Under the pieces are notes generated by a model. That model saw nothing but the letters and a program-made list of their open reading frames with translations. It searched no databases and was not told where the DNA came from. Below are positions 1-14,060 of a DNA stretch of 36,336 nt, in pieces. The translations under genes were made by a program, and so were the position numbers. The stretch's first letter is position 1. Each line of letters opens with the position of its first letter. Origin of the DNA: an uncultured Mediterraneibacter sp. (lineage in GTDB: Bacteria; Bacillota; Clostridia; Lachnospirales; Lachnospiraceae); the NCBI RefSeq assembly GCF_944377805.1, contig NZ_CALWFZ010000022.1, forward strand, positions 1 through 36,336. The letters are read 5' to 3'.

Positions 1-70
1 GATTCAAATATAACACAAAGTGAGCCGGTCCTCGCTTTTTAAATATTCAGTTGTAACACATGTATTGTAA
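1..70. other. Foreign sequence abutting broken spo0A
   Basis: These bases follow the last recognisable spo0A codon and do not encode Spo0A. They are AT-rich and hold short direct repeats: TAACACA at 11-17 and 54-60, and TTGTAA at 51-56 and 65-70, the last one touching the breakpoint. Short repeats at a junction are common at the ends of integrated elements, where they serve as recombinase arm or core sites. No recombinase gene is in view. Identification as an element end is inference. Confidence 0.4.
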
Positions 71-340
71 TCCTACAGCTGTGATCACGATAAAGTACGG
101 ACGTTTATTGACAAAATGATCCTGCCCCACTTTCTCCATTACTGTCAATCCATCCATTTTCGGCATGATCAGATCGAGAAGAACAACATCCGGCTGTCTG
201 TCCTTTATGATCTGACACATCTCCTCGCCATTTTTAGCCTTTCCTACCAGATCAAGATCCTTGTCCGTGCTGATGATCTCGCCCAAAACATCCAGTAATT
301 TCTGATTATCATCAGCGATGGCCACACTCAAATGCTCCAT
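47..340 (-). pseudogene. spo0A: Truncated Spo0A, receiver domain only
   Basis: Spo0A is the phosphorylated master regulator of sporulation. The ATG at 340 follows a strong ribosome binding site (AAAGGAGAG), and residues 1-90 form a recognisable Spo0A receiver: acidic pair D10-D11, phospho-acceptor D56 in LLDLIMP, and T87 in the VITAVG strand. In intact Spo0A that strand continues into GQE and later the conserved lysine and the C-terminal DNA-binding domain. Here, after G90 (codon ending at 71), the reading frame goes into seven unrelated residues and stops at 47. The receiver lacks its last helices and lysine, and the effector domain is absent, so the product cannot act as a transcription factor. 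The gene lies downstream of spoIVB in the usual order. The break could be an inserted mobile element, a skin-like excisable element, a deletion or an assembly join; the other half is not in the window. Confidence 0.88.
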
Positions 341-440: not shown

Positions 441-479
441 TTCGACACAATATTCGACTAATCAGACGATTCGACCTGC
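441..479 (-). promoter_or_regulatory. Three 0A-box-like sites and sigma-H-like promoter
   Basis: The known Spo0A binding core is TGTCGAA. The minus strand shows TGTCGAA at 447-441, AGTCGAA at 459-453 and GGTCGAA at 476-470, all upstream of spo0A and overlapping the end of spoIVB. GCAGGTCGA (479-471) and GTCGAATA (458-451), 12 bases apart, also loosely fit a sigma-H promoter. Bacillus spo0A is known to be controlled by both sigma-H and Spo0A. The boxes are clear; their function is inference. Confidence 0.6.
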
Positions 480-1552
480 TTCAGCATATTTTCAATAAAG
501 ATGCCATATCCTTTTGTCGAATCCTGAACAAACACATGTGTCACCGCTCCGATCAGCTTTCCGTCCTGTATAATAGGGCTTCCGCTCATACCCTGGATAA
601 TTCCTCCGGTTTTCTCAAGCAGTTCAGGATCCGTGATCTGGATGACAAGCCCTTTATTGATCTCCGAGCCCGACGTGTCGATACCTGTCACCTGGATTTC
701 ATAATCCTTCAATTCGTTGTCAATATAGCATCGTATTGTCGCTTTTCCTTTGTGAATGTCGTTTTTTGTCGCTGTCTCAATGGGAACCTTTTCACTGAAC
801 AGTTCATCAATTCTGTCTATTGTTCCGTAAATTCCCGCCTCTGTATTCTTGTCGATACTTCCCAGCACATTATAGTTATTGTACACAATGATCCCTTCCA
901 TTGTTCCGGGAGATCCGCTGTACCCTTTCGTGATGTCCTGAATACTCGTCCGGTATACCCGGCCATTGTCTATAGACATCAGAACACTTGTATCTGTGTC
1001 GTGGATTCCGTGACCCAGCGCTCCGAACCTGCCGTCTCCGGTGAGAAATGTAACCGTTCCCAGTCCCTGTACGTTATCCCTGACCCAGATTCCAAGGCGA
1101 TACCTGCCGGGAGAATATTCTACCGGGTCAATCTCTACATCTACGGTTTCCTCTCCCCGCCGAAGTGTGAGAACCACCTGAGTTCCGTCGATCTCTCCCA
1201 CCGCTTCAAGCAGGTCGGCTTTTCCGGATATTCCCTCATGATTGACCGCTGTAATATAATCTCCTGACCTGACCAGTTCTGCAGCGGGGTCATATTCTTC
1301 GCCGTCAATCCCTTCAATCTCTTCTGTGTTCAACACCATCACGCCGTCCGTTTCCATATAGATTCCAACCGGCATGCCGCCCAGAAGAACCGTGTTATCG
1401 GCCGATGATGAAGTGTTGGCTTCCGCTTCCACAAAAGAAGATTCCCCGTACAGAGGCGGAGAACTCTTTTGCACCGCCGCGGCCACACAGAGCAGACACA
1501 GAAGGCCACAGACAATCACATATCCTGTCCTGTATTTCCGGTTTTCCACCAT
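458..1552 (-). CDS. spoIVB: SpoIVB serine peptidase
   Basis: SpoIVB is the forespore-made peptidase that signals across the inner spore membranes to release pro-sigma-K processing in late sporulation. The 364-residue product has a membrane-spanning N-terminus at about 10-27, a PDZ-like region at about 60-150 and a C-terminal S55 peptidase domain. That domain shows GALGHGIHD (178-185, catalytic His) and GMSGSPIIQDGKLIGAVTHVF (321-341, catalytic Ser), both SpoIVB hallmarks. Length is slightly below the Bacillus protein. The start has a good ribosome binding site (GGAAAGGAAG). It sits between recN and spo0A as in most endospore formers and is separated from recN by a terminator, so it should have its own promoter. 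Confidence 0.95.
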   Translation of the reverse strand: MVENRKYRTGYVIVCGLLCLLCVAAAVQKSSPPLYGESSFVEAEANTSSSADNTVLLGGMPVGIYMETDGVMVLNTEEIEGIDGEEYDPAAELVRSGDYITAVNHEGISGKADLLEAVGEIDGTQVVLTLRRGEETVDVEIDPVEYSPGRYRLGIWVRDNVQGLGTVTFLTGDGRFGALGHGIHDTDTSVLMSIDNGRVYRTSIQDITKGYSGSPGTMEGIIVYNNYNVLGSIDKNTEAGIYGTIDRIDELFSEKVPIETATKNDIHKGKATIRCYIDNELKDYEIQVTGIDTSGSEINKGLVIQITDPELLEKTGGIIQGMSGSPIIQDGKLIGAVTHVFVQDSTKGYGIFIENMLKQVESSD

Positions 1553-13156: not shown

Positions 13157-13753
13157 TTAAGCCCGTTTCATTATTTTAATCTTATGCGCTTCCACACCGA
13201 ATAATGCCTGAACTGCCTCAGTAATATTGCGCTGTACAACAGCATCTTCACCGCCTTCCGCAATCACTACTACCCCCTCAATCTCAGGGGTGAGCTCTTT
13301 GCTGACATAGGGATCGGAAGAGCCGTCCTCATTCTGGGAGTAAATGCTCGTTTTGTCGGAGGAAGTATCTTCCACCGTTCTCGTACCGCCGCTGCTGTCA
13401 GATTCCGTTGTTGTCTGGCTGCTGGAAGACTGGTCTTTTTCTATGATCTTCTGGCTTCCGGACTTTAAAGTGATCATCACGCTCACCTCCCCTACGCCTT
13501 CTACCTGACTGAGGATTTCCGCTGTTTTTTCTTCAAGATATGCCTCATAGGCGCCTGATTCTGACGAGGAGAAAATATCCGCTTCCACAGCAGTGTCGGT
13601 ATTGTCATTCACTTCACTGCCGGAAGGAACAGGCACGGTTATAACCAGGAGCAGAATCCCTATCAGGAGCAGGATTAAAAGCTGGTTCTTTTTCGGAAGT
13701 TTCTCTCTCTTTACCAGCCCTCCGATCCATTCTTTCCACTTCTTACTCTCCAA
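13157..13753 (-). CDS. spoIIIAG: Stage III sporulation protein AG
   Basis: SpoIIIAG forms a large ring in the mother-cell membrane as part of the SpoIIIA-SpoIIQ complex. The 198-residue protein has a membrane segment at about 23-43 and a ring-building domain with YLEEKTAEILSQVEGVGEVSVMITLKSG and the C-terminal GVVVIAEGGEDAVVQRNITEAVQALFGVEAHKIKIMKR, both typical of AG. The start appears to be TTG, seven bases after GGAGGAG, overlapping the end of spoIIIAF by 11 bases. Confidence 0.94.
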   Translation of the reverse strand: MESKKWKEWIGGLVKREKLPKKNQLLILLLIGILLLVITVPVPSGSEVNDNTDTAVEADIFSSSESGAYEAYLEEKTAEILSQVEGVGEVSVMITLKSGSQKIIEKDQSSSSQTTTESDSSGGTRTVEDTSSDKTSIYSQNEDGSSDPYVSKELTPEIEGVVVIAEGGEDAVVQRNITEAVQALFGVEAHKIKIMKRA

Positions 13754-14060
13754 TCTCTATCTCCTCCACTTCGATCTTCTCATCGGCTCCCGTCACCTTC
13801 AGATTCTCGTAAAACTCCTCCGCTTTTTCGATCTCGCGCCTGTTCATTTCGTATTCATTTCCCTTATAGAGTGTCTCGAACCGCTCCGCCATACCTGTCA
13901 GATTCAGGATCGGCGACGCCAGCAGCAGCACCAGTATAAGCCCGGAAAAGAACCGGATATATTTACTGTAGTCTTTACCCGGAACCGCGTGCATAACGGC
14001 GGCAGTGACAAGCAGATACACTGTGATGTTCTGTATCCATCCGTAAAGTTCCTGAAACAT
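13743..14060 (-). CDS. spoIIIAF: Stage III sporulation protein AF
   Basis: SpoIIIAF is a small mother-cell membrane protein of the SpoIIIA complex. The 105-residue protein has two membrane helices (about 9-26 and 35-52) and then a charged soluble tail. This is shorter than Bacillus SpoIIIAF (about 200 residues), which has a longer soluble ring-like domain. The family opening LYGWIQNITVYLLVTAAVMHAVPG and KYIRFFSGLILVLLLASPIL are clear. GGAGGAGATCTG precedes the ATG. Confidence 0.9.
   Translation of the reverse strand: MFQELYGWIQNITVYLLVTAAVMHAVPGKDYSKYIRFFSGLILVLLLASPILNLTGMAERFETLYKGNEYEMNRREIEKAEEFYENLKVTGADEKIEVEEIEIGE

Follow-up and report, generated by a model that had tools for sequence, protein, structure and literature searches.

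Described Systems Related to the Locus

The skin element interrupts sigK, a sporulation regulator gene, and a gene of the same kind, spo0A, is interrupted at the locus described here.

For prokaryotic members of the IS481 family, PMC10045372 gives target duplications of 2–15 bp, mostly of 6 bp. Longer duplications are described for the IS1202 group, reaching 24–29 bp in PMC10045372 and 16–28 bp in the long-duplication subgroup according to PMC10132070, in which the transposases have 394–507 aa and members with long duplications showed no specific target. With respect to target choice, PMC3942029 describes that TnGBS, ISLre2 and ISKra4, which have Mutator-type transposases, insert in front of sigma-A promoters at a constant distance. 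In most cases the same one of their two ends is on the promoter side, the -35 box lying 13–17 bp from the element end in Mutator-type elements.

The element found in spo0A, as judged from complete same-genus copies, has traits in common with several of these systems. It resembles IS481 elements in its size (about 1.07 kb), its TGT...ACA ends and its single 314-aa DDE (rve) transposase, which scores at the NCBIfam IS481 cut-off. However, its target duplications are of 22–27 bp (25–26 bp at five sites of the source genome, 22–27 bp in 13 relatives), and it shows a fixed offset to promoters that was not found in print for IS481 in the open-access literature. By transposase and ends it would be classified as IS481, forming a subgroup beyond the published duplication range. 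The long duplication is shared with the IS1202 family, but the transposase is shorter, and its match to the ISNCY model of NCBIfam is weak (46 of 250 bits). The fixed distance of a DDE element to sigma-A promoters is shared with TnGBS, ISLre2 and ISKra4; in contrast to these, about 30 nt separate the element end from the -35 box, with the 26-bp duplication in between, and the transposase is matched best by the IS481 and rve models and by none of the Mutator type. Unlike skin, the element is multicopy, generates a target duplication, gives no sign of excision in the assembly and, in its complete same-genus copies, carries no site-specific recombinase. Taken together, we are confident that spo0A has been split by a multicopy insertion sequence of the IS481 family, belonging to a promoter-targeting subgroup.

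The Interrupted spo0A Gene

The window, namely the whole stretch of DNA that was analysed, is the complete contig C22 (NZ_CALWFZ010000022.1; 36,336 bases), and its position 1 is a genuine contig end. The source genome is a 2.28-Mb draft of 45 contigs, 92.6% complete. The 5' part of spo0A (78..340, minus strand) extends from the start codon to within codon 88 (263 nt) and codes for an incomplete receiver domain (Pfam Response_reg). The open frame to which it belongs (47..340, minus strand) matches Spo0A only at positions 2–92 of TIGR02875 and then continues through foreign sequence, that of the element, to a stop at 47. A previous sequence-only reading had placed the cut at codon 90. The truncation itself holds but its exact point does not, since the Spo0A-derived DNA stops at position 78, inside codon 88, and the "VG" of codons 89–90 comes from the element, its agreement with Spo0A being fortuitous.

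The missing C-terminal half, whose search had been recommended, is present at the terminus of C12, next to the other end of the element (C12:61070-61624; from codon 80 to the gene end, 184 residues). Searching the genome for the Spo0A DNA-binding domain gave two places, C12:61097-61408, near the contig end, and a receiver-less paralogue on C1; all 104 positions of Spo0A_C are present in the C12 fragment. No intact spo0A was found elsewhere in the assembly, the missing part of which may still hold a copy.

Some proteins carry the Spo0A DNA-binding domain but lack a receiver. One of 173 aa is encoded at L002:1408-1929 (G000:C1:107569-108090), and receiver-less matches likewise occur in genomes of the genus such as G011, G044, G049 and G055.

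Positions 1..77 of the window (minus strand) are the transposase-start end of the element (end A), truncated by the contig end. This end reads ...GTAATCCTACA up to position 77, and the same sequence appears at other contig ends and on complete same-genus copies. Next to it lies the 26-bp target-site duplication (78..103), identical to C12:61599-61624 (L001:2003-2028), and then a -35-like TTGACA (108..113, plus strand, antisense to spo0A) that begins 4 nt beyond the duplication, at a distance of 30 nt from the end of the element, and has no matching -10. A sense-form TTGACA exists at the spo0A site in 15/94 loci of relatives (28/94 have no alignment there).

In separate comparisons of the window and of C12 with eight loci of relatives (seven of the 80 Spo0A-fragment matches, plus L241), both contigs adjoined in 8/8, overlapping by 32–36 bp that include the 26-bp repeat. 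On the window side, the gene beside spo0A is spoIVB (458..1552, minus strand; TIGR02860, Peptidase_S55), an intact upstream neighbour in the same gene order as in 8/8 relatives checked; on the C12 side it is a gene that we take, from a reading of its protein, to be glycogen synthase. Since C22 and C12 are side by side in relatives and share the 26-bp repeat, there was no deletion but a single insertion with target duplication. Simple loss of the missing half, which had also been considered, is thus contradicted, nothing being absent between both contigs.

The break falls at contig ends of a fragmented draft, as would be expected if contigs had been falsely cut or joined and spo0A were whole in the organism. 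Such an assembly artefact is highly improbable, given that both contigs run into opposite ends of one element bordered by an identical 26-bp duplication and that four other sites of the genome have the same junction pattern. The contigs extend 77 nt (C22) and 74 nt (C12) into the element with no break at its edge, where the assembly kept no strong alternative, which makes an abundant empty site appear unlikely.

Full-length, single-frame Spo0A was detected by profile search in 55/58 genomes of the genus. This count is preferred to that obtained by a script with an over-strict motif, which gave open spo0A frames in 44/94 loci of relatives. The source genome is the only one of the 58 with spo0A in two pieces; in G016 the gene is cut at a contig start with no element end there, and G015, whose genome is 88% complete, lacks a full spo0A match. 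The nearest relatives by the Spo0A fragment are the Mediterraneibacter metagenome genomes L031 and L032 (96% over 90 residues), in a search that may omit the source genome itself and very near genomes.

The Inserted Element

A repeated element in a short-read assembly gives rise to contig ends of the kind seen here. Within the source genome, the sequence of positions 1–77 is found again at seven further contig ends, and that of the C12 end at six. Five pairs of ends are joined by exact duplications of 26 bp (C22/C12-end, C4/C12-start and C1/C17) or 25 bp (C10/C29 and C5/C30); 3/8 end-A and 2/7 end-B junctions of the source genome are without partner.

The interior of the element is absent from the assembly, in which only the last 38 residues of the transposase are present. 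A complete copy of the same genus (L120:1500-2568) has 1069 bp, is flanked by a 26-bp duplication with one mismatch and codes for a 314-aa transposase that reaches 224 bits with NF033577 (NCBIfam IS481, cut-off 224) and exceeds the cut-off of Pfam rve. This transposase and one antisense ORF are the only ORFs of at least 60 aa in the copy. The termini are imperfect inverted repeats (TGTAGG...CCTACA). According to a search with the end sequences, the element is carried by 11/58 genomes of the genus, the source included. The interrupter is predicted to be a copy of this multicopy IS481-type element, of about 1.07 kb and with one DDE transposase, its class being taken from the same-genus copies because its own interior is unassembled; spo0A may instead contain a larger transposon that terminates in these sequences.

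A tiny MITE-like derivative, with little beyond the two element ends, was observed at L160 (G027:C3:1-1500). It is located beside a full end A, in front of a promoter-like pair.

Besides spo0A, a second gene is split by the element in the source genome, namely rnfE (TIGR01948), which is cut at its start between the end of C4 and the start of C12 (L234, L228). A TTGACA is found here 4 nt outside the duplication, on the end-B side. Other junctions precede a class II aldolase gene, uvrB, rpiB, a SAM-hydrolase-like gene and genes for LysR-type and Rrf2-type regulators.

That an element interrupts spo0A, as had been suspected, is borne out by one end at window 1–77, the other on C12 and the 26-bp duplication. 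The same reading had compared it with skin, that is, a programmed and reversible element that a site-specific recombinase would excise from spo0A for spore formation. The gene is indeed interrupted, and short direct repeats at the junctions could in principle recombine. However, the ends of the element are found at many other contig ends, with a different 25–26-bp repeat at each paired site, which identifies the repeat as a target duplication rather than an attachment site; the idea that the shared 26-bp core is a recombinase attachment site was dropped for this reason. In addition, no site-specific recombinase gene, for which a search had been advised, exists in the complete same-genus copies (for instance L120), which contain a DDE transposase only, the interior of the spo0A copy itself being unassembled. 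Finally, spo0A is uninterrupted in nearly all genomes of the genus, and the continuity of the assembly at the element edge argues against excised forms. A skin-like switch has therefore almost no probability, even less than an assembly artefact.

Position of the Insertions with Respect to Promoters

Sixty distinct end-A flanks were collected from the source genome and the genus, 57 of which were kept after dropping L128 and two flanks of L160, which contain another element end. A promoter-like pair was defined as -35 and -10 hexamers with at most 4/12 mismatches, a spacing of 16–18 and the -35 starting 28–32 nt from the element end. Such a pair is present in 42/57 end-A flanks (dinucleotide shuffles: mean 6.5, maximum 16 in 300). 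Single hexamers in all 60 flanks peak at offsets 29–31 (TTGACA-like) and 52–54 (TATAAT-like). At end B, the pair occurs in 7/17 flanks (shuffles: mean 1.66, maximum 5), and four of the 15 insertions without a pair at end A have one at end B (L006/L019, L007/L018, L158 and L167).

A second test was based on relatives of the transposase, the ends of which were set by terminal repeats and duplications alone. Transposase matches were found in 16/299 genomes of the family and 28/391 of the class. Both ends were determined by script in 13/57 relative loci (27 from the family and 30 from the class); the script gave no ends for the 44 others. Duplications in the 13 resolved relatives are of 22–27 bp (26 bp in eight), and in 13/13 a promoter-like pair begins 3–6 nt beyond the duplication, always on one side only (shuffles: mean 2.44, maximum 8 in 2000). 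Sliding the test window to five other offsets gave only 2–6/13. For two more loci, L270 and L279, whose ends were set by hand, the duplications measure 25 and 24 bp, and TTGATT is found 5 nt outside. The other 42/57 loci include many fragments and copies at contig ends. These offset counts cover the long-duplication subgroup alone, the comparison being with shuffles and slid windows.

The element might track the bare TTGACA hexamer, promoters being struck since they contain it and insertions within genes being purged by selection. Both gene-splitting insertions, in spo0A and rnfE, agree with this: in each, TTGACA occurs without mismatch 4 nt beyond the duplication, and the -10 is poor. On the other hand, a good -10 is present at 34 end-A sites, of which 11 have a weak -35 (three or more mismatches), and 7/11 of these show an extended -10 TG. 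Such sites favour recognition of the whole promoter, plausibly through bound RNA polymerase, over that of the hexamer, and attraction by the bare hexamer is accordingly regarded as unlikely. Under recognition of the whole promoter, the spo0A site is atypical: its -35 is perfect, but it is the sole one of 20 sites with a good -35 that lacks a -10. We read the spo0A insertion as an off-target event at a promoter-like sequence.

The course of events is seen as follows. Most insertions of the subgroup are located immediately in front of sigma-A-like promoters, with about 30 nt between end A and the -35, a positional pattern in which the duplication spans roughly -40 to -66 of the target promoter. 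The transposase may sense promoter-bound RNA polymerase. At spo0A, the element landed within a coding sequence, where an antisense TTGACA is present at the usual distance, the hexamer probably acting as the attractant, and a 26-bp staggered cut of the target inside codon 88 produced the perfect 26-bp duplication with no deletion.

No report on promoter targeting by IS481 elements was found in the open-access literature searched; within that scope, a promoter-targeting IS481 subgroup is apparently undescribed.

Sporulation Genes and Predicted Consequences

The claim that spoIVB, spoIIIA and yqfCD, next to spo0A, are intact is supported, spoIIIAF being uncertain. Open frames matching their families were found for spoIVB, spoIIIAA, AB, an ORF of the SpoIIIAC/AD family, AE, AG, AH, yqfC and yqfD. 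AB, AE, AG, yqfC and yqfD score under the NCBIfam cut-offs; Pfam cut-offs are exceeded by all these ORFs except AG, which has no Pfam match. The SpoIIIAF candidate (13743-14060) is short, with 105 aa covering about 74–76 of 185 profile positions, the first part of the profile. Elsewhere in the genome, sigK forms an unbroken reading frame of 219 aa and spoIIE a single frame of 466 aa. The latter was considered as a sign of decay because of its shortness, but this was rejected since its length is that of the genus form (411–548 aa; 56/58 genomes with a match). Among the sporulation genes examined, spo0A is the only broken one.

With both halves no longer forming one protein, phosphorelay control of Spo0A would be lost and sporulation blocked. 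Loss of sporulation as a consequence of the split is likely, as predicted from the gene sequences. The exact duplication suggests that the insertion is recent, and reversion would require precise removal of the sequence between both 26-bp repeats, which would be a rare event.

An outward ATG is present six codons from the edge at both ends of the element (MFDKPT at L001:2029-2050; MYCNPT at window 56-77), and insertions can in this way give a start codon to a cut gene. A bias of the element ends towards in-frame starts was discarded: 7/13 junctions are in frame, by a rough estimate against one in three, and some of the frames are possibly non-genes.

Spo0A lacking the receiver is active in B. 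subtilis without phosphorylation. It is conceivable that the end-B ATG, which overlaps the transposase stop, yields from the transposase message a 190-aa, receiver-poor Spo0A independent of phosphorylation. The frame is open from inside the element (MFDKPT followed by 184 Spo0A residues), the fragment lies downstream of the transposase gene and in the same direction, and it has the whole DNA-binding domain, with every position of Spo0A_C. Moreover, end A likewise provides an in-frame ATG (MYCNPT) ahead of the cut rnfE. However, a match in frame has a one-in-three chance, the 7/13 in-frame cases among junctions with a long outward frame are not clearly above it, and a literature search on receiver-less Spo0A found nothing direct. 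Synthesis of such an active fragment is consequently considered doubtful, and less probable than the bare-hexamer reading of target choice; the preferred interpretation remains that spo0A has been inactivated.

Significance of Promoter Targeting

We lean towards a general view in which a Clostridia-wide IS481-type subgroup would pick its targets through promoters occupied by sigma-A RNA polymerase. The 26-bp staggered cut would straddle the region bound by the alpha subunits of the polymerase, with the -35 about 4 nt outside, and the subgroup would represent a second, separately evolved form of promoter homing beside that of Mutator-type elements, the spo0A insertion being a misfire. In the open-access literature searched, promoter targeting in bacteria is found in print for Mutator-type transposases only.

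We judge that spo0A has undergone ordinary inactivation by insertion, the agent belonging to an unusual IS481 subgroup that seeks promoters. A draft contig that ends inside spo0A does not necessarily imply a developmental switch. As the element is a compact, single-gene insertion sequence whose signature appears in all 13 resolved relatives, docking of its transposase on RNA polymerase would be directly testable. Promoter targeting allows a transposon to spread with genes mostly spared, and the broken master regulator of this Mediterraneibacter may be explained as a misfire of such an element.
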